Assembly (NCBI RefSeq): GCF_021917145.1
Contig: NC_061074.1
Span: 9,860,384-9,924,383, forward strand
Source: Hypomesus transpacificus
Taxonomy: Eukaryota; Chordata; Actinopteri; Osmeriformes; Osmeridae
Direction: 5' to 3'
Length of the DNA: 64,000 nt
The notes under the pieces are model-generated. The model did not search any database. It was not told the DNA's origin and saw nothing but the letters and a program-made list of their open reading frames with translations. This document shows, piece by piece, positions 1,284 through 54,200 of the stretch. Both the position numbers and the translations under genes were made by a program. Every line of letters begins with the position of its first letter. Position 1 is the first letter of the stretch.

Positions 1284-4200
1284 TGTGAAGCTGTCAAGGA
1301 AATCCTCCTCAGAGATGCCAAACTTGGTATACTGGTGAATGTAGGCCCTGCAGAAGTCACAATGTGGGTTACTATGGGAACTACACCCCCCCCCCCCCCC
1401 CCACCCGGTTTACTGTCCAGTCAGGTGTATATGGTTTTATCAAACGGACATTCATTAAGAAAACGTCTCCTCCTTTCGATCTGGAAGCTCACCTGGAGGC
1501 GAACATGTTCCAGGCCTTCCCCACCATGTTATCCAGAGGGCCCAGGAGAGCCTGGCTGTTGCTGACCAGCGTAGCACACTTCTCGTACCTGTTGAAGGGG
1601 ACAGGTGTTTTCCACGTGCTGAAAGCCTCCTCTGCTGGAAGCCAAGGGGAATATAAGGCTGCTTCTTGAAATCCACCTTGAGAAGACAAAAGCTGTTCAG
1701 TAGTGGCCCTGACATCACAGTTTACAAGTTTGACTATAAACTGAAAACAGAGTATATATATATATGGCAGTGTGAGATCTGATTCCCGCTTGTGTCATCA
1801 TTGCTGAATTAACGAAATGTTATATAACATTTCGTTAATTCAGCAATGATGACATATGATATATATACAGTGCGCTCCAAAAGTATTGGAACAGTGAGGC
1901 CAATTCCTTTATTTTTGCTGTAGACTGAAAACATTTGGGCTTGACATCAAACGATGAATGTGAAACCAGAGATCAACGTTTCAGCTTTTATTTCCAGGTA
2001 TTTACATCAGGATCTGATGCACAAATTAGAAAATATCACCTTTTTGTTCGAACCCACCCATTTGTCACGTGAGCAAAAGTATTGGAACATGTGACTGACA
2101 GGTGTGTTTTGTTGCCCAGGTGTGTCCTATTACATACATTATTCAATCAATAAATACCACTGAATGTCTACACTCAGGTTCAGATTGGGTAAGATAGGTT
2201 TTGTCTATGCAGACTGTATTCAGAGGTGAAAACAACATGAAAACCAGAGCGCTGTCTTTGGGTGAAAAACAAGCAATTGTGAGTCTTAGAGAAGATGGAA
2301 AATCAATCAGAGCCATTGCAGAAACATTGGCCATAGCCAGTACAACCATTTGGAATGTCCTGAAGAAGAAGAAAACTACTGGTGTACTAAGTAACAGATG
2401 TCGAACAGGTAGACCAAGGAAAACATCAGCAGTTGATGACAGAAACATTGTGAGAGCTGTAAAGAAAGACCCTAAAACAACTGTTAGTGAGATCAGCAAC
2501 AACCTCCAGATGGCAGGAGTGAAGGTATCACTATCTACTGTTCGCAGAAGACTTCATGAACAAAAGTACAAGGGCTACACCAGAAGATGCAAACCACTCA
2601 TTAGCAAGAAGAATAGGAAGGCCAGGCTGGAATTTGCCAAAAAGTACAGAGATGAACCTCAAAAATTCTGGGACAAAGTTTTATGGACTGATGAGACAAA
2701 GATTAACTTTTACCAAAGTGATGGAAAGGCTAAAGTTTGGAGAAAGAAAGGAACTGCTCATGATCCCAAACACACAAGCTCATCTGTGAAACACGGTGGA
2801 GGTAATGTCATGGCTTGGGCTTGCATGGCTTCTTCTAGGACGGGCTCATAAATCTTCATTGAGGATGTAACACATGATGGCAGCAGCAAAATGAACTCGG
2901 AAGTCTACAGAAACATTTTGTCTGCCAATTTAAGGAAAGATGCAACCAAACTGATTGGCAGAGCCTTCATCATGCAGCAAGATAACGACCCAAAACACAC
3001 TGCCAAAACAACAAAGGAGTTCATCAGGGGCAAGAAATGGAAGGTATTAGACTGGCCAAGTCAATCTCCAGACTTAAACCCTATAGAGCATGCATTTTAC
3101 CTGCTTAAGAGGAGACTGAAGGGAGGAACCCCACAAAACAAACAACAACTGAAAGAGGCTGCAGTGAAAGCCTGGGAAAGCATCAAAAAGGAAGAATGCA
3201 AAAGTTTGGTGACGTCAATGGGTCACAGACTTGCTGCAGTTATTGAAAGCAAAGGATTTGCAACTAAATATTAAGTCTTATTCACTTAAATATGTTTTAA
3301 GTATATCTGTTCCAATACTTTTGCTCACATGACAAATGGGTGGATTCAAACAAAATGTGATATTTTCTTAGTTGTGCATCAGATCCTGATGTAAATACCT
3401 GGAAATAAAAGCTGAAACGTTGATCTCTGGTCTCACGTTCATTATTTGATGTCAAGCCCAAATGTTTTCAGTCTACAGCAAAAATAAAGGAATTCGCCTC
3501 ACTGTTCCAATACTTTTGGAGGGCACTGTATATGTATATATAACATTTCGTTAATTCAGCAATGATGACACAAGCGGGAATCAGATCTCACACTGCCATA
3601 TGGCAGCTTGACTAAAAAAAATCTTAATCGACCAGAAAATCGACTAGTCGACTAAGTGGGGACAGCCCTAGTATACACTATACTGTATACATACATTGTG
3701 TTTATTGAACCCTGTAGTTGTCAAGGTTACTCACCTGTCTCTGCGCTGTACACGTCTTTCCCCCGCAAAATGAGCAGATTGGCCACAGATGGGTTAAATC
3801 CCTGCCTAATGTGGCTCCTAGACCTATCACGACCCATGCCAGGGAGGACTGGGGCTTGCACCTGCCAATCAATACCTTGAAGAGGACAGAACCATAAAAA
3901 CAAGGAAAACTTTCATCATCATGCTGTTTACACACAGGCTCTACAAGAGGCTAATGCTTTGCTGGTCCGACTTGCCTTCCTCCATCTTGGTATTTGCTAT
4001 GAGCATCTGACGCAGGTGTTTGAGCAGGCCAAGCCAGGAGAATATGCTGTAGGCCATGGAGGAGCTGGCCATCTGGGGGATGGTAGACACGCTCAACAGC
4101 TTGTACTCTGGGTGACAAACCAGGCTGCTCATCAGGTCCCCTAGGAAGAGAAACACACAGTAACACCCTGCACGTGTGTGTGGTGTGTGTGTGGGATGTG

Positions 4201-32627: not shown

Positions 32628-35600
32628 ATGGATATTACTGGTATACATTCTAAAAGTCCGTTGTTTTTCGGAGTATGCGCCTTTCTTCACTTTTACGCGT
32701 CTGTCTCGGCGGAATCTAGCTGCAAACTGAAGGCCAAATTCAACCTTCACGGTTACACAAATGTAGTGAAGAAAAAGGTGGTTGTTGGGGGAATGTTTGC
32801 CGTTCACCAGACTGTCGCCTCAACCCCGACAAACACCTCGTCCGTACCCCTTTCCCTGGGATGCGAGGGGTGAGTAGAGACTGTTTTCATGGTGCCCTTT
32901 GTTAACCTGCATCTGTAGGCTATCCACTGCAGAATACCCTAATATTTAAATGTGGGGTAAGACCTTTATGGTAATGTAAAAATACAATAAAATGCTAGCC
33001 TATTAACATGTAGCCTATGAGTGATTAGGCGATTTAAAATGATTCCATGCACTCGCACATTCAACTATAAGCCTACGGAGGTCAATATTTACGGTTGTTG
33101 GCATCCGTGTTGTAAAGGGAATGATGTAGCCTATGATGTAAATAAATGTAAGCCTTTTCATCAACACCGATGATTGTGAATGGGCCCTCTGTTTCGCTGC
33201 CTGTAACCGTAAAACTAAAAAAAAAAGTTAGTTATATTAGCGACCTCTAGTGGGTATTTTATGTTACGACTCAGATGACGAAAATAAACCCATAGTTCTT
33301 TCAAACAGTTTCAACTTCAGGACGTTCCGCTGGACTCAAACGATGCTCTTCGCCATCGATGAAATAAACAAGCGGAAAGACCTCCTTCCTAACACAGACT
33401 TGGGATACGTTATCTACGACTCGTGCTTCACCATTTCCAAGGCAGTCGAGGGCACGCTCACCTACCTAACGGGGCAGGAAGAGGCCGTGCCCAACTACCG
33501 CTGTGGCTCTGGGCCGCCGCTGGCAGCACTGGTGGGGGCGGGGGGGTCCGATCTGTCCATCGCCACCGCCAGGATACTGGGGCTCTACCACTTCCCTCAG
33601 GTTGTGTGTGTGTGTGAGAGAAAGAGAGCCTGATGTACTTGTTTGATGTGTTTTAATGTGTGTCTTCTGCGCTACACAACAAATCACAAGGACATTACAA
33701 CAGTCTCAGAGGACATTACATGTTTCTACTAATACTACTGCAGCAAGATGGAGAGGGGTCTTTTATTTTGACTGTATTCCGTCCTCTCTCGCCCCCCTGT
33801 CTCGCCCCCGTCTCCTCCCTGTAGGTGAGTTACTGCTCTTCGTGCTCAGCCCTGGAGAGTAAGTTCCAGTTCCCCACCTTCCTGAGGACCATCCCCAACG
33901 ACGTCCACCAATCGGAGGCCATGGCTCGCCTGGTGCTGCACTTCGGGTGGACCTGGGTGGGCACCATCGCCGCGGACGACGACTACGGCAAGTACGGCAT
34001 CAAGGCCTTCAAGGAGCAGGTGGAGGAGGCGGGGGTTTGCATCTCCTTCTCTGAGACTCTGCCCAAGGTGAGGAGGTTCTACTGTTTCAGTCCTCCCCCC
34101 ACCCCATCCCTCTTTTCCCGCCAAAACCACACACGCGCGTTCTTTCTCCCTCGTTTTCATTCGCTGGCAGAACCCTCATTGGCCGGGTTTCCCAGATTCA
34201 TTTAGAAGGTCTTAACGCTAAGAGCTTCTTAGGAGCGTTTTAAAAACGCTCTAGAACGCTCTTAGAACGCTCCTAAGAAGCTCTTAGCGTTAAGAGCTTC
34301 TTAACGTATCTGGGAAACCCGGCCATTGTAAATATCAAGGTCAACGTGCTTTTTACACTTTCCCGAATCCTCTCCTCCTCTGTCCGTCCGTCCGCCAGGT
34401 GAGCTCTCCTGAGGACATCAGACGTATCGTGGACACGGTGGTGGAGTCCACCGCCAAGATCATCGTGGTGTTCTCGTCGGACGTGGACCTGAGTCCCCTG
34501 GTGCAGGAGCTGCTGCGGCACAACGTCACCAACCGCACCTGGGTCGCCAGCGAGGCCTGGGTCACCTCCGCTCTCATCAACCAGCCCGGGGTGAGGGGGG
34601 CGGGGCTGACACAGGGGGGTCGGGGGTGGAGGCAAGGTGAGGGCGTCGACCTTGGCTGAAAAAGCCAGTGAGGAGAGTGAGGGGTCATTCTTCAGAGGAA
34701 CTCAACTATGCTGTGAGTGTGTGTGTGCGTGAAGGGGGGGGTCAGATGGCTGAGCGGTTAGGGAGTCGGGCTAGTAATCAGAAGGTTGCCGGTTCGATTC
34801 TAGGCTGTGCAAAAAGGCATTTCACCTTACTTGCCTCAGGGGGAATGTCCCTGTACTTACTATAACTTGCTCTGGATAAGAGCGTCTGCTAAATGACTAA
34901 ATGTGCAGGTCAGCTCTGTGCTGGGCGGCACCCTGGGGTTCGGGCTGCGGCGTGCTGAGATCCCCGGCCTCCAGCGCTACCTCCTGGACCTGGACCCCTA
35001 CGACCACTCCCTCTCAGAAGAGTTCTGGCAGAAGGTGTGTACAACATCACCACTCACCTGGACGTCTGTGACGTCTTCCAGATCCCCGACTCACCATTGA
35101 CACAACACTAGACCTGCATCCTAACTGACCTACCCAGAACTATGAAGAGGACGCCCTGGTAGTATCTAGTATGTTTGTGTGTGTCCTTCAGGTGTTCAAC
35201 TGCACGCTAGACTATGGGCTGGCTATGAAGAAGGCCAAGGAGCTGGCCAGGGCGGCGGGGGCTAACGGGACCCTGTACAGGAGTGTGAGGGGGCTGCCTG
35301 AAGGGCTGTGCACTGGCAAGGAGACTCTGGAACGCCTCAATAACACTTACACCGATGTGTCCCAGCTACGCATCACATACAGGTAGGCACACTCTACACT
35401 GCATCACATACAGGTAGGCACACTCTACACTGCATCACATTCAGGTAGGCACACTCTACACTGCATCACATACAGGTAGGCACACACTACACTGCATCAC
35501 ATACAGGTAGGCACACACTACACTGCATCACATACAGGTAGGCACACTCTACACTGCATCACATACAGTTAGGCACACACTCTACACTGCATCACATACA

Positions 35601-38600
35601 GGTAGGCACACACTCGACACTGCATCACATACAGGTAGGCACACACTCTACACTGCATCACATACAGGTAGGCACACATTCTACTCTGCATCACATACAG
35701 GTAGGCACACACTCGACACTGCATCACATACAGGTAGGCACACACTCGACACTGCATCACATACAGGTAGGCACACACTCTACACTGCATCACATATAGG
35801 TAGGCAAACACACTACACTGCATAACATACAGGTAGGCACACACTCTACACTGCATCACATACAGGTAGGCACACACTACACTGCATCACATACAGGTAG
35901 GCACACATTCTACACTGCATCACATACAGGTAGACACACACTCTACACTGCGGATGAGGATGAAGGGGGAAACGTGTCTAAGGCGGTCTGCAATACGTCA
36001 TCACACTTTCTGCAGTGTGGTGATGGTGATGATGATGGTGGTGGTGATGGTGTGGTGTTTCTTCAGTGTGTATAAGGCGGTGTACGCCGTGGCCCAAGCC
36101 CTGCACAACCTGGAGTACTGTGAGCCGGGCAAGGGGCCCTTCACCAATAACAGCTGCGCTGACATCAGCAACTTTGAACCCTGGCAGGTCAGAATGTGTG
36201 TGCGTGTGCCTTTGTGTACGAGTCCCATTTAAAGATGTCCTCTTCTTGCGGATATACCTTCCTCTCAAGCTCCTCCTCCTCTCTTTCCTCCAGCTGATGT
36301 ACTATCTAAAGAACGTGAACGTCACTATCCCTCACACTGGAGAGACCATAGTCTTTAACAACGGTGATGTGGACGGCTATTACGACATCCTCAACTGGCA
36401 GATCGACGGTGACGGAGAGATCTCCTACGTGTCCATTGGTCAGTACAACGGCACGGCGCCCCCAGAGGCTCGGATGACCATCAACAACGACTCCATCGTC
36501 TGGAGCAACGAAAGGCTGGAGGTGAGATGTGAGATGATCAAGGGTATCCAACAGCAGCTGTGTGTGTGTGTGTCTGGAGAGCCTGTCATGAAAAATAGTT
36601 GAAAGAAAAAACAGACATAACCAAAATGAAGACGGAAGGGGTGGCACAAACTGCAATCTCTCGGGGCCCGAAATGTGTAGCTGCACCCTGTCTCTGCATG
36701 AGTACGTGTGTGAGTGTGTATTCCGTTTCGGAATGCTCCACTGACGCCCACCCTCGTCTCCACGCCACGTTCCAGCCTCCGCGCTCCCTGTGCAGTGAGA
36801 GCTGCCAGCCAGGCACCAGGAAGGGCATCCGGCAGGGGGAGCCGGTCTGCTGCTTCGACTGCCTCCCCTGTGCTGACGGAGAGATCAGCAACTCCACCGG
36901 TACGCCGTCCTCCTGTCACTGCACCCTCCTGTCACTGCACCCCCTGTCACTGCACCCCCTGTCACTGCACTGCACCTTCCTGTCACTGCACCCCCTGTCA
37001 CTGCACTGCACCTTCCTGTCACTGCACCCCTTGTCACTGCACCTCCCTGTCACTGCACCCTCCTGTCACTGCACCCCCTGTCACTGCACCCTCCTGTCAC
37101 TGCACCCTCCTGTCACTGCACCCTCCTGTCACTGCACCCTCCTGTCACTGCAGCCCCTGTCACTGCACCCCCCTGTCACTGCACCCCCCTGTCACTGCAC
37201 CCTCTTGTCACTGCACCCTCCTGTCACTGCACCCCCCTGTCACTGCACTCCCCTGTCACTGCACCCTCCTGTCACTGCACCCTACTGTCACTGCACCCTC
37301 CTGTCACTGCACCCCCCTGTCACTGCTGCCCCCTGTCACTGCACCCTCCTGTCACTGCACCCTCCTGTCACTGCACCCTTCTGTCACTACACCCTACTGT
37401 CACTGCACCCCCCTGTTACTGCACCCTCCTGTCACTGCCCCCCCCTGTCACTGCACTGCACCCCCCTGTCACTGCATTGCACCCCTCTGTCACTGCACCC
37501 CCCTGTCACTGCACCCCCCTGTCACTGCACCCCCCTGTCACTGCACTGCACCCCCCCCCCCGTCACTGCATGTATTCTAGACTAGTTCAACAATCTGATT
37601 GAGCAGTTGAGCTGTGTGTTTTGACTTGTAAGAGGGGTTGACTTGTAGAGGTGTCCGTGACAATCCTCTCTCCTTCCTCTGTGTCCAGATGCCAGGGAGT
37701 GCATCCAGTGTACTGAGGATTACTGGTCCAACCAGGCCCGGGACTCCTGCGTGCCCAAGACCATCGAGTTCCTGGATTTCAGTGAGCCTCTCGGAATCAC
37801 CCTCATAGCCATCTCTGCCTTTGGAGCGCTGGTCACTATTGCTGTCGCCGTGAGTCACAGCACTCACTCACACACTCCTAACGCAAGCACATGCACACAC
37901 TCTCCTAAGCATAACGCATACACACACAACTCTTAACACAACACACGCATAAACCACGTGCATACTCCAAGCCCCACCCACACACACACCAAATACAACA
38001 TTTGCAGACGTTGAAGCCCCCCGTTGATTCCTCTCTTGGTAGGTGGTGTTCCTGGTCCACCTGGGCACCCCTCTGGTGAAGGCCAACGATGCCCTGCTCA
38101 GCTTCTCTCTGCTCCTCTCCCTGATGGTCACCTTCCTGTGCTCCATTGTGTTCCTGGGGGAGCCCCAGCACTGGAGCTGCATGACCAGCCAGGTGGCTCT
38201 GGCCCTGGGCTTCGCTCTCTGCCTCTCCTCCATCATGGGTGGGTAGGAGACTGTGCCTCTGTGTCTGTGTGCCTGTGTGTGTGTGTTAAAGGCAAGATTT
38301 ATAACTAGTTCATCAACACTCCATCGCTCTCTTGCTTTCTTCATTTCTCTATCTCCATCCCTGGTAATGAGCCGACGTGTCTGTTCTGCACCAGGTAAGT
38401 CGGTGGTGTTGATGCTGAGGGCCAGAGCCCTGAAGGCAGCCAGGGCCAAGGCCAAGGCCGCCTCTAAAGCTGCCGCAGAGGCTGCTGCAGCCAACACAGG
38501 CCCCGACGTCATCGTCACCAACAGCAACAACAGCAACAGCAACAACAACGACAGTGCACCCAACGGCAACCTTTACGTCGACCCGATCGGTCCTGCCCAC

Positions 38601-40130
38601 CAGAGGGCGATGTGTGTCGTGGCAACGCTTATACAAGTAAAATAACACAGTGCTGCCGTTCTCCATAGAAGGACGCTTACAAATCCAATACGTACAATGT
38701 AAACAGGCCATAGGGATCTGTATGAGTATGACATTGTAGGAACGTTTAGTTTATGTGTGTAACTTCCTGATAAAAATGCCCGTTATGAAACTCACCTAAC
38801 ATCGTTTGAAATCATGAAAAATTCACTTAGCATCTTCTTCATGGTGTTTTCTGGATCCTTTTTGAATGGAAGTTAACCGAGGTGACCTTTGACCCAGGCG
38901 GCAGCGTGCACGGTGTGGCTCATCATCCTCCCGCCGCACCCGGTGAAGAACACCGCGGCACAGAACGTCAAGATCATCCTGGAGTGTGACGAAGGCTCCA
39001 TCGTGTTCATCTGCTGCATCTTTGCCTACGACATCCTTCTGGCCCTGATTGCCTTTGTCTTCGCCTTCGTGGCGCGGAAACTGGAGGACCACTTCAGGTA
39101 GCTAACGAGCTAGCAGAGCTAGCAGAGCTAACGAGCTAGCAGAAGCTAGCAGGAGCTAGCAGGAGCTAGCAGGAGCTAGTCTTATGTACATCAAACCGTT
39201 GACCCACTGTCACAGTTATAATGGCCGGGTTTCCCAGATTAATTCTTAACGCTAACAGCTTCTTAGGAGCGTTCTCAGAGCATTCTTAGAACGCTCATAA
39301 GAAGCTCTAAGCGTTAAGAGCTTCTTAACAAATCTGGGAAACCGGCCAATGTCTGTTAGCAGGTGAGCAGTTAAGTTAGCAGTTAGTCGGCAAAGCTGTG
39401 TTGTTGGGGTGGGAAACTTTTGGTACCTCACGATTCGATTTGAATCAATTATTGGGGTCACGATTCGATTAAAAACCTATTCACGATTTTTACGAGGTAA
39501 AAAAAAAAAAACAGCATTTTGTAAAGAAATCTGAATCGCTAGCAGACTGATTCACAATTCAAATGTGTTGATTTCCCCCCCCACCCCTGCTGTGTTAGCA
39601 TGCTAGCATTGTTCTGTACTAGTGTATCCTGAATTGTTTGAACACTACAGCAATAATTAGCAACCTACGCCAGACTTAAAATTTCGATCAAAGAGTTTTA
39701 AATATTTCCGACGGTCCCCAACAGTGTGTTATTTTCCCAAAACGGTAACTAGCTAGCAACTCCAAACTTAAGGGTATAAAAACAATCCGTCACCTCTGGT
39801 TTCAGTGAGGCCAAGTGCATGACGTTCGGGATGCTGGTTTTCTTCATCGTGTGGATCTCCTTCGTGCCTGCCTACCTCAGCACACGAGGCAAGTTCATGG
39901 TGGCCGTCCAGATCTTCGCCATCCTGGCCTCCAGCTTCGGCCTGCTAGCTTGCATCTTCCTGCCCAAGGTCTACGTCCTGCTGGTGAAGCCCGAGCGCAA
40001 CACGGAGGAGATGATTCGTCCTCGCGTCAAGATACGGGACGGCTCCTCCACTGGTACCTCCGCGTCACTGACGACCACCGCTACGGAGATGAACGCCACC
40101 ACCATGTCTACAGTGGCCCTGGATGACTAG
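32628..40130 (+). CDS. vmn2r1: Class C GPCR, V2R/OlfC-type (probable vmn2r1/olfcc1)
   Basis: Putative chemosensory receptor of the CaSR/V2R family. Fourteen exons: 32628-32869, 33309-33600, 33825-34067, 34399-34590, 34909-35034, 35192-35382, 36067-36187, 36294-36521, 36776-36899, 37689-37849, 38043-38238, 38395-38636, 38898-39097, 39806-40130; 960 aa. A signal peptide ([19 protein letters not shown]) precedes the Venus-flytrap domain, with [16 protein letters not shown] and ASEAW. A nine-cysteine domain follows ([18 protein letters not shown]), then seven membrane segments; TM6-7 include [15 protein letters not shown] and [11 protein letters not shown]. Loop 2 carries a long Ala/Lys- and Asn/Ser-rich insertion. 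Canonical V2R/CaSR genes have about six exons and a single 7TM exon; here the 7TM region is split by four introns. The mouse Vmn2r1-7 cluster beside Gmps supports the symbol; protein similarity to CaSR leaves other OlfC names possible. Confidence 0.88.
34181..34324. mobile_element. Fold-back MITE in V2R intron 3
   Basis: A near-perfect palindrome begins GGCCGGGTTTCCCAGAT and ends ATCTGGGAAACCCGGCC. Arms consist of AAGAGCTTCTTAGGAGCG-type sequence and its complement. A second copy is at 39.22 kb. Confidence 0.85.
34738..34905 (+). repeat. tRNA-derived SINE ending at the V2R exon 5 acceptor
   Basis: The head has TGGCTGAGCGGTTAGGGAG and GGTTGCCGGTTCGATTC. The tail TCTGGATAAGAGCGTCTGCT then AAATGACTAAATG runs directly into TGCAG, the acceptor of exon 5 (34909). 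Same family as 9.14 kb. Confidence 0.9.
35371..35950 (+). repeat. 31-33-bp array copying the V2R exon 6 donor
   Basis: About 18 tandem units contain CATCACATACAGGTAGGCAC and then ACTCTACACTG. The first unit is the real exon end and donor (exon ends 35382). Nearly every unit repeats the perfect CAG|GTAGGC site. Confidence 0.95.
36900..37566. repeat. 15-bp CTGTCACTGCACCC array after the V2R exon 9 donor
   Basis: Roughly 40 units of CTGTCACTGCACCCN, some with an inserted CTGCA, begin within about 15 bp of the exon 9 donor and fill most of intron 9. It creates open frames of about 300 codons. Confidence 0.93.
39099..39180. repeat. GAGCTAGCAG short array after the V2R exon 13 donor
   Basis: About eight 9-11-bp units based on GAGCTAGCAG start immediately after the donor of exon 13 (GTAGCTAACG). 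Confidence 0.85.
39223..39347. mobile_element. Fold-back MITE in V2R intron 13 (second copy)
   Basis: Begins GGCCGGGTTTCCCAGATTAA and ends AATCTGGGAAACCGGCC, with internal palindromic arms. Same family as 34.18 kb, more diverged. Confidence 0.85.
39400..39590. repeat. Interspersed repeat with ACGATTCGATT motifs
   Basis: Contains TGGTACCTCACGATTCGATT and a second GGGTCACGATTCGATT. Such segments are dispersed in fish genomes, as remembered. The class is uncertain. Confidence 0.4.
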
Positions 40131-51200: not shown

Positions 51201-54200
51201 GCCCCCAGCCCCTCAGGCCCTCAGCCCTCCATGATATGCTGTAACTACACCATACTGGACTGTATTTTCCAAACTGTGCTACACGCTGGTGTTGTCTTGT
51301 GAAAGGCATAGGTCAGTGGAGTGAAGGTTCTAAAGAGAAAAAAGTGAGAGAGACAGAGAGTAAGACTGGGCTGTTAGAAGCCGGTCTCAACATCACTCAG
51401 TGGGCCGGTGAGGACAACGATATGTGGGAGATAAAGGCCTTTTTACTGGATACGGGTGGCAATGTTTTTGATTTTTCGTCCAGAAAATGAAGAGGGATGA
51501 TAGCTATAAATATTTCAGTACATTTGGGGTGGGAGTGTGTGAGAGTGGCTGTTGGTCTGTGGGCGGGTCTGTGTATATTTAAAGACATCTCATGAATGGA
51601 AAAGACTTTGAGTTAGCCTTTGAATGAAGGTGTCGATTGATTTTGCAAGCAATCCTTTCCATCTCTCCATCTAATTTTTCTGAAATCTCTTTTGGTCGTT
51701 CTACCCCTCCATCCACCCCTCTCTCTTTGTTCCTGTGTCTCTCATTAGTCCGTCTCTCAACAGGGCCAACACAAACTCAGGAGGGAGACATTTAATTTCC
51801 AAGCCAATTAAAAGGCCAAATTCATTATTTTATTGAATGGAGTGGAATTAATTGTTTGATTGTGAGTGTCTAGAATAGCGAGTGTAAACCCATTAAGCTA
51901 TGCCAACAAACTGATTGCTGCCCCCTGCCGACTCATCTCTAATTAACTTTCATTCAGAGGGCAGGATGGCCATCTGTTGAATCGTGTGCCCCAGCAGATA
52001 TCAATCCCAGGGTGTGGACAGAGTGCTGGTCACAGCAGAGGGGTAGTGTGTGTAAGGCTTGTCCAGGTGATCTACTAGGTCTCTACCTCCAGGCTCGCCT
52101 CTGTTTGGCCCTGAAACAGAGCACAGCGGTGTCATCATCCTTCATGGCAGGAGCTGGGGAAAGCTACCACATCATCATTAATCGCCCCGGGCACCCGGCC
52201 TGACTCAGCGCGTCCTCGCCTCGTGCCCTACATTCTCTCAGCAGCAGCTTGGGAGATTGGGCCGCACGGTTCTGAAGTTGGGAATTTGCGACGTCCGGGA
52301 AAAACAGAGAAACTTCTTGTTCTCTCCCTGTGAGACGTTTTTAGAACTTCTCCTTCTGTTGAAAGTCTGGCATCGTTAGGCATGAAACTTTACCAGACTG
52401 AACGGTATATTTTGAAGAGATCTGTCCGCCATCCTTGGCGAGGTCTTCAGAAGACGTCGACATGTCAGATAATTCCGTGTCCTCTGATTGGTCTCAGCTC
52501 TTGATGAACACCTAGATGCACTTCTACAGGTCAATCAGATTCAAGGGGATCGATGGATGTCAGTTCTCGTGTGCCAGACTAGTGTCCCAGTTGCAGGTGA
52601 AACCAGAAGTAATCCTAAACACAACCTGTCATAGTGAGGCATAATCCTAACCCGATACCGAGCACCAGCATCCACCACCAACACAGTGATGTCAGTGTGC
52701 GGGAGTCAACAGACACACGGTTAGCAATGGCGTCCTCGTGCCTCTCCTGTCTCCCTCATCTTGTGAAAGACTCTGTGTGGTCAGGAGAGGTGAGGCTGTG
52801 AGGGGTCAGGAGAGGTGAGGCTGTGAGGGGTCAGGAGAGGTGAGGCTGTGTGGGGTCAGGAGAGGTGAGGCTGTGAGGGGTCAGGAGAGGTGAGGCTGTG
52901 TGGGGTTAGGAGAGGTGAGGCTGTGTGGGGTCAGGAGAGGTGAGGCTGTGTGGGGTCAGATGAGGCTGCGTGGGGTCAGGAGAGGTGAGGCTGTGTGTGG
53001 TCAGGAGAGGTGAGGCTGTGTGGGGTCAGGAGAGGCTGTGTGGGGTCAGGTGAGGTGAGGCTGTGTGGGGTCAGGTGAGGCTGTGTGGGGTCAGGTGAGG
53101 CTGTGTGGGGTCAGGAGGGCTGTGTGTGGTCAGGTGAGGCTGTGTGGGGTCAGGTGAGGTGAGGCTGTGTGGGGTCAGGAGAGGTGAGGCTGTGTGGGGT
53201 CAGGAGAGGTGAGGCTGTGTGGGGTCAGGAGAGGTGAGGCTGTGTGGGGTCAGGAGAGGTGAGGCTGTGTGGGGTCAGGAGAGCTGAGGCTGTGTGGGGT
53301 CAGGTGAGGCTGTGTGGGGTCAGGAGAGGTGAGGCTGTGTGTGGTCAGGAGAGGTGAGGCTCTGTGGGGTCAGGAGAGGTGAGGCTGTGTGGGGTCAGGA
53401 GAGGTGAGGCTGTGTGGGGTCAGGTGAGGCTGTGTGGGGTCAGGAGAGGTGAGGCTGTGTGTGGTCAGGAGAGGTGAGGCTGTGTGGAGTCAGGAGAGGT
53501 GAGGCTGTGTGGGGTCAGGTGAGGCTGTGTGGGGTCAGGTGAGGCTGTGTGTGGTCAGGAGAGGTGAGGCTGTGTGGGGTCAGGTGAGGTGAGGCTGTGT
53601 GGGGTCAGGTGAGGCTGTGTGGGGTCAGGTGAGGTGAGGCTGTGTGGGGTCAGGTGAGGCTGTGTGGGGTCAGGTGAGGTGAGGCTGTGTGGGGTCAGGT
53701 GAGGCTGTGTGGGGTCAGGTGAGGTGAGGCTGTGTGGGGTCAGGAGAGGCTGTGTGGGGTCAGGTGAGGCTGTGTGGGGTCAGGAGGGCTGTGTGGGGTC
53801 AGGTGAGGTGAGGAGAAGAGACAGCAAGTCCATTCACACTGTGCCACTTAGATGAGGATACATGAGAGTTGTTTTAGTCCACGTGTCTACTCTCAGTTCA
53901 GCGTGTTTCAGAGTGTGTGTCTGGTGTTGTGTTTCTCTGTGTGCATGTGTGTCTGGTGTTGTGTTTCTCTGCTTGTGTCTGGTGTTGTGTTTCTCTGTGT
54001 GTGTGTCTATTACCAAGCAAGTTTGTCTGCTTGTTTATTTCCGTGTGCTAATGTGTCACTCTCCTGTCATTCCAGTCACCATGGTCTTACTGGAAGCTGA
54101 CACGACAGGTTTGAGAGCAGGGCTGATTCCTGATTGGTCATGGCCTGACTCATGCGGTTTCTTTTTGGCTGGGATGTCAGTGGGAACGAAAAGGGTGTGT

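Follow-up and report, generated by a model that had tools for sequence, protein, structure and literature searches.

A minisatellite that repeats the 5′ splice site of a CaSR-like receptor exon, and arrays of the same layout at other exons of Hypomesus transpacificus

How can the end of an exon be chosen correctly when its 5′ splice site (donor) is followed by a long series of near-identical copies of itself? This question is raised by a 64,000-nt stretch of Hypomesus transpacificus DNA (contig NC_061074.1, positions 9,860,384 to 9,924,383 of the forward strand; hereafter the window, to which plain coordinates refer), in which a minisatellite begins within the last bases of exon 6 of a class C receptor gene and continues into intron 6, repeating the donor. 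Choice among equal donors is an old question that has been studied mostly with two-site minigenes and with the human gene for coagulation factor VII, F7. The explanation that we favour, at a probability of roughly 0.7, is that a tandem duplication across the exon 6 edge has been tolerated, the exon-adjacent donor being used and the remaining copies leaving with the intron. The 15 identical and two weaker donors found here, together with the series of arrays at other exons, would allow the choice to be followed in standard RNA-seq data as copy number varies.

The array and its donor copies

The features on which the argument rests are as follows, a slash marking the splice junction in motifs here and below.

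32628..40130, plus strand: whole class C receptor gene; 14 coding exons, 960 residues, 13 of 13 introns GT-AG
35192..35382, plus strand: exon 6; 191 nt, phase 2, ending ...CATACAG, placed by the reading frame with AG before and GT after
35370..35951, plus strand: minisatellite with consensus GCATCACATACAGGTAGGCACACACTCTACACT, its 18 units being 31 or 33 bp long; from Tandem Repeats Finder (TRF) and unit cutting
35370..35400, plus strand: unit 1; last 13 exonic bases, true donor and first 18 intronic bases
35383..35384, plus strand: GT of the true donor, CAG/GTAGGC; score 8.66, U1 duplex -12.3 kcal/mol
35401..35949, plus strand: units 2-18, with 16 more GT donors; unit 7 (35556-35588) lacks the GT, and units 14 and 18 are weaker
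35383..36066, plus strand: intron 6; 684 bp, 569 bp of them array
36067..36187, plus strand: exon 7, beginning T/GTG TAT AAG, its T completing a Ser codon

The array was called by TRF with a period of 33, 18.1 copies and 93% matches, and its units were delimited by cutting at GCAT[C/A]ACAT, which gave seven units of 31 bp (1-6 and 16) and eleven of 33 bp. TRF, the unit cut and the reading frame agree that the first unit consists of the exon 6 end and its donor, as an earlier note on this DNA had described. Each unit opens with 13 bases that correspond to the exon end and continues with bases that correspond to the donor; because the 13 exonic bases GCATCACATACAG are found again, exactly, 31 bp downstream, the copying of the exon end is not chance. 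These 13 bp encode R-I-T-Y, which aligns to LRISYNVY of CaSR. Sets of identical units were found (1, 2 and 6; 4, 5 and 16; 8, 11 and 12; 9 and 13), a pattern expected from repeated local copying. A minisatellite at an exon edge is as such unremarkable, the genome being rich in minisatellites, and the window alone holds 109 TRF rows, overlapping rows counted.

The earlier note had counted about 18 equal donors. Nearly every unit does carry a donor, and the exact tally is 17 units with GT, 15 of them identical and two weaker: CAG/GTAGGC is present in 15 of the 18 units, unit 14 reads TAG/GTAGGC, unit 18 reads CAG/GTAGAC, and unit 7, with CAG/TTAGGC, has lost the GT. Donors were scored with a position matrix, which gave 8.66 in 15 units, 7.07 in unit 14, 5.34 in unit 18 and -1.3 in unit 7. 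The U1 duplex energy was -12.3 kcal/mol for 14 of the units; unit 3 had -12.2, and units 14, 18 and 7 had -9.7, -9.6 and -5.6, respectively. Strength therefore cannot separate unit 1 from most of its copies, since 15 of the 18 share its score and 14 its U1 energy, with another within 0.1. The exon 6 donor has the fifth-highest score among the 13 of the gene and the most stable U1 duplex of them all. Substitutions numbered 3 in 162 donor positions versus 14 in 360 positions of columns 13-32, and these counts, which are too small for testing and come from overlapping column sets, give no sign of selection to keep the extra donors.

Nothing was found in favour of an assembly artefact or a dead gene, and either would be a highly improbable source of this pattern. 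The units differ by distinct substitutions and come in two lengths, which argues against an artefact, and the 14 exons join in one open frame of 960 residues, with AG before and GT after the internal exons and GT-AG at every intron, which argues against a dead gene. In scans of the whole assembly (437 Mb, 376 contigs; the window, whose genes look like teleost ones, lies on contig C15), the exact 13-mer CATACAGGTAGGC was found at 39 sites, compared with 5 for the reversed control. Fourteen of the 39 are the exon 6 array, at a single place on C15, and 12 form a second array on contig C2, in another gene; this distribution also speaks against an artefact.

Reading frame and the choice of donor

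One further feature decides what the copies would do to the message.

35384..35386, plus strand: in-frame stop TAG, reached with any later copy (units 2-18 joined to exon 7)

Exon 6 ends in the codons ...CGC ATC ACA TAC AG at 35382. When unit 1 is joined to exon 7, the frame stays open, in line with CaSR ...HLRISYNVYLAVYSIAHA, whereas units 2-18, the GT-less unit 7 included, all give ...QLRITYR followed by the TAG at 35384-35386. The immediate stop for later donors and the need of a working receptor for the first copy, both claimed in the earlier note, are thus borne out for every unit. Use of a later donor would lengthen exon 6 from 191 nt to 222-738 nt. A stop codon ahead of further introns makes a message a target of nonsense-mediated decay, and because seven further introns lie downstream of exon 7, messages from later donors are expected to be decay targets.

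From this arrangement it could be supposed that some transcripts use later donors, meet the stop and are removed by nonsense-mediated decay, and that copy number sets receptor output in this way. The uniform stop and the seven introns after exon 7 would allow it, and 16 of units 2-18 keep the GT, 14 of these being exact copies of the true 9-base donor. A like layout is known from human F7 intron 7, whose variable repeat HVR4 is presumably the 37-bp repeat described next, its alleles H5 to H7 presumably having five to seven units. Several 37-bp repeats that hardly differ from one another are reported there, with the intron 7 donor in the first of them and the most upstream site alone normally used; this is attributed in the report to oriented scanning, with Borensztajn 2006 cited, and weakening of the first site is described as leading to exon skipping and to use of downstream intronic cryptic sites (PMC6627357). 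This precedent argues against tuning by copy number, and also against the expectation in the earlier note that much of the message is non-productive. The HVR4 alleles H5, H6 and H7 are reported to be common, with H7 at 38.3% in controls, and the meta-analysis in that paper gave an odds ratio for coronary disease of 0.88 (0.78-1.00) and concluded a lack of association (PMC3166910), so that the repeat has an at most marginal link to what is an indirect phenotype. On these grounds, an output set by copy number appears quite unlikely. The parallel has its bounds: like F7, the receptor array has the exon end and the true donor within its first unit, and later units that repeat the donor, mostly at equal strength; unlike F7, it has 18 units of 31 or 33 bp in an unrelated gene and sequence, and it is in F7 that donor choice has been tested.

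A tolerated tandem duplication, the explanation preferred here, could have arisen in a few steps. A slip or an unequal exchange would have doubled about 31 bp spanning the exon 6 end and the intron 6 start, and the new copy, being intronic and spliced out, would have been free to multiply; the array would then have grown, partly homogenised by slippage or unequal exchange. Growth would have spread into the intron only, because coding constraint holds the exon side. The spliceosome would take the donor nearest the exon body, as reported for F7, and the array would persist because the exon-nearest donor is used and the other copies are discarded with the intron. With donor 1, exon 6 has 191 nt, and this donor could be paired with the 3′ splice site (acceptor) at the start of the exon; the choice of donor 1 may rest on such exon definition, on its being transcribed first, or on both. 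Most likely the exon 6 array is tolerated rather than regulatory, and its presence would then be nearly neutral. Several 5′ sites occupied by U1 are reported to alter choice, efficiency not being lowered unless the sites are very close (PMC5389562). Of two further sources, one treats mainly donors a few bases apart (PMC2423196) and the other gives general U1 background (PMC8724738).

It might also be that the array actively keeps donor 1 in use, by recruiting repressors of the later copies through UAGG motifs that overlap the donor (hnRNP A1-like) and CA-rich spacers (hnRNP L-like). Both hnRNP A1 and hnRNP L have repressor roles, and TAGG is present in 17 of the 18 units and ACACAC in 12. Unit 1 carries TAGG too, however, and its upstream context would then have to differ; moreover, the motifs arrived with the duplicated donor, no selection being needed. 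We consider such recruitment very improbable.

Equally improbable is a role of the units as dual-specific AG/GT sites, in which a late-donor transcript would be rescued by a second splice, from donor 1 to the AG that the late copy leaves ahead of exon 7, or the array would be removed stepwise. AG/GT occurs in 17 of the 18 units; splicing at a late GT would leave ...CATACAG/TGTG, so that AG ends the upstream side of the junction; and a score of 5.07 was obtained for the six listed AGs of the units, versus 4.42 for the true acceptor, on a rough home-made score whose origin itself counts against leaning on it. Dual-specific AGGT sites, and the part they play in tandem repeats such as UBC, have been described (PMC10809524), and the receptor units resemble those arrays in carrying AGGT. 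Against such use, the units have no pyrimidine tract (ACTGCATCACATACAG). In UBC, the repeats are protein-coding and a single sequence acts in both splice-site roles (PMC10809524), unlike in the receptor, where the true acceptor (TTCTTCAG/T) lies outside the array. This acceptor, at 36066, sits 115 bp past the array, so the intron does not have both ends in the repeat, and an origin of intron 6 by tandem duplication of an AGGT-bearing segment is ruled out.

In human duplicated genes, too, exon-intron boundaries are reported to carry minisatellites of about 30 bp that bear on splicing; these were found by paralogue variation and can make new introns (PMC2812944), whereas in the receptor an existing intron has been lengthened. 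No report of such arrays in fish turned up in the openly licensed literature searched.

Splice-site arrays at other exons

The exon 6 array is neither unique nor unprecedented, and its value is that of one of a series, since the same layout was found at other exons of the assembly. The second array of CATACAGGTAGGC (L009, contig C2) begins at an exon end (...SYRDIQ/) of a MAP3K5-like gene, identified by Pfam MAP3K_TRAF_bd (293.5 bits) and solved MAP3K5 (265 bits). It holds 14 copies of CAG/GTAGG at steps of 29 bp except one, and each of the 13 later copies leads to a stop. That CATACAGGTAGGC is common to two unrelated genes carries no weight, the 13-mer having been the search query.

To reach beyond this query, donor motifs were counted across the assembly as triples with gaps of 10-40 bases, overlapping hits included. 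AGGTRAG triples numbered 10806 versus 2348 for the reversed motif (4.6x), and AGGTAAG triples 939 versus 261 (3.6x). The 100 AGGTRAG-triple rows listed fall into 9 arrays, from which donor-motif arrays may be extrapolated, roughly, to about a thousand per assembly. The flanks of 19 arrays were inspected, namely those 9 and 10 of the 11 further listed AGGTAAG arrays; four were left out, one with a masked flank (L037), one that was repeat throughout (L061) and two in which stop codon and donor could be confused (L066 and L067). In this motif-selected sample, a coding exon end formed the first unit in 3 of the 15 evaluable arrays: a septin-8-like exon (L031), a GABRA2-like exon with 52 of 52 residues identical to the solved alpha-2 chain (L032), and a TGFB2-like exon of which 24 exonic bases are copied exactly (L065). 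At the other 12, no coding exon was recognised at the first unit. In the septin-8-like case, the first donor is GAG/GTGGGG, the later ones are GAG/GTGAGG, and fewer than six exonic bases recur exactly.

Like the receptor array, the MAP3K5-, septin-8-, GABRA2- and TGFB2-like arrays begin at an exon end and repeat the donor; unlike it, they belong to other genes and sequences, with units of 29, 30-31, 20 and 47 bp, respectively, and only the MAP3K5-like array shares CATACAGGTAGGC. Their recurrence in conserved genes supports a tolerated duplication.

Acceptors were found to be copied as well. TTTCAGG triples, overlapping hits again included, numbered 308 in the assembly versus 41 reversed (7.5x), and the downstream flanks of the first 20 of 29 listed arrays were inspected, three being left out as repeat throughout (L042, L053 and L054). 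A coding exon lay directly after the last unit in 4 of the 17 evaluable arrays of this sample, also motif-selected. In these the 3′ splice site is repeated before an ATP2C1-like exon (L041), an HDAC1/2-like exon (L049), an exon that matches Pfam DUF1908 (8.4e-09) and that we take to be MAST-kinase-like (L059), and a collagen-like exon judged by reading from its Gly-X-Y pattern (L046). A further array (L052) looks possible, although its exon has no Pfam match, and in L040 a coding-like stretch begins about 30 bases past the array and was left out of the count. Arrays thus copy both exon ends, and the copy that keeps the frame is the exon-adjacent one in both cases. An asymmetry confined to donors, in which 5′-first choice tolerates donor arrays alone, was dropped as a candidate since acceptor arrays stand at real exons. 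Judged from the anatomy of these few cases, arrays at both exon ends fit exon-proximal choice or exon definition better than one-way scanning. Among 88 predicted exons in 284 kb, five arrays cover the last exon base and none the first, four of the five sitting in the window or in L009, both chosen for such arrays.

Several points weigh against the explanation by tolerated duplication. The use of donor 1 is presumed from the intact open frame. Classic work on duplicated donors often found the intron-proximal copy to be favoured. A simple exon finder ran the MAP3K5-like exon on to the second donor copy (L009 5675-5872), and automated annotation of array-edged exons may be one unit off. For acceptors, several occupied 3′ sites do lower efficiency, according to the report on U1 occupancy (PMC5389562), and acceptor arrays may for that reason be less neutral than donor arrays. 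Finally, arrays are only weakly enriched at exon edges. Single motifs outside repeats were taken from contig C2, sampled at even spacing in 20 stretches of 10 kb (L011-L030), where AGGTRAG stood at predicted donors in 3 of 53 cases and TTTCAGG at predicted acceptors in 0 of 30. Compared with these, the 3 of 15 donor arrays gave a Fisher p of 0.12 and the 4 of 17 acceptor arrays one of 0.013, in a comparison biased towards arrays, the single motifs having been judged by the exon finder and the arrays by eye and family searches. On the receptor gene, the finder overlapped 8 of the 12 internal exons, 4 of them with both ends correct.

More broadly, splice-site-copying minisatellites could form a class in this compact fish genome, present at both donors and acceptors of coding exons that number on the order of a hundred or more, with the exon-adjacent copy chosen and with leakage, and through it gene output, able to rise with copy number. 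We regard this as doubtful; if true, it would provide a natural series of few to dozens of equal sites and would point to exon-proximal choice.

That splice sites are hot spots of minisatellite birth is not claimed: the triples overlap, and the composition of G-rich minisatellites may explain much of their excess. For AGGTRAG as a single motif, a repeat-masked sample of 181 kb showed no excess over the reverse (53 versus 68). Among 75 arrays in 284 kb, units with a donor score of at least 8 numbered 9, versus 4 reversed and 3.4 expected from shuffles, and at score 7 the numbers were 11, 5 and 6.4; as evidence for hot spots, this excess is suggestive only.

Some further arrays lie close to this subject. 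At L009 7250-7901, no more than 6 bp separate a later exon of the MAP3K5-like gene (...TACTG/GTGAGA) from the 34-bp, 19-copy array behind it. In a repeated ubiquitin-hydrolase-like gene (L066, L067 and C2:10580976; L067 matches Pfam UCH), units of 40 bp repeat the coding end ...YILFYTYR, where AGGTAA could be read either as a stop codon or as a donor. The sole case in L011-L030 of an array overlapping a predicted exon end, with imperfect copies, is L030 8998-9163, whose predicted exon has no Pfam match. The L060 array lies antisense beside an exon judged by reading to be teneurin-like. On the minus strand of L011 (99-318), a nine-copy, 24-bp array has a unit with CAG/GTGAGA, its upstream flank being masked. 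Within the window, a 45-copy, 25-bp array (52774-53813) has a unit with the strong donor-like GAG/GTGAGG, and no coding exon was seen directly upstream.

The receptor gene and its surroundings

The identity of the receptor was judged from its product. Exons 6-8 match Pfam ANF_receptor, and among solved structures (best 60 of 159 rows) the best match was CaSR with 789 bits, versus 336 for T1R2, metabotropic glutamate receptors (mGluR) also ranking below it. The ligand-binding region and the seven-helix part resemble those of CaSR, with a phmmer alignment over residues 47-712 and 777-929. The same 60 rows consist of CaSR, T1R and mGluR, with V2R absent from them. We name the receptor CaSR-like on this basis, and the V2R label given in the earlier note may still apply.

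The seven-helix part and the last portion of the cysteine-rich part (37689-40130) are divided among five exons, whereas in CaSR and V2R a single exon holds the seven helices.

Two more arrays lie within the receptor gene. A 16-bp, 39-copy array (36909-37546) begins 10 bp past the end of exon 9 (donor CCG/GTACGC), and its consensus unit has no GT donor. The first bases of a third (39095-39179) are the final three of exon 13 (CAG/GTAGCT); its units are mostly CAGGAGCTAG and have no GT. Elsewhere in the window, two adjacent open frames at 2198-3274 resemble a Tc1-type transposase, as judged by reading.

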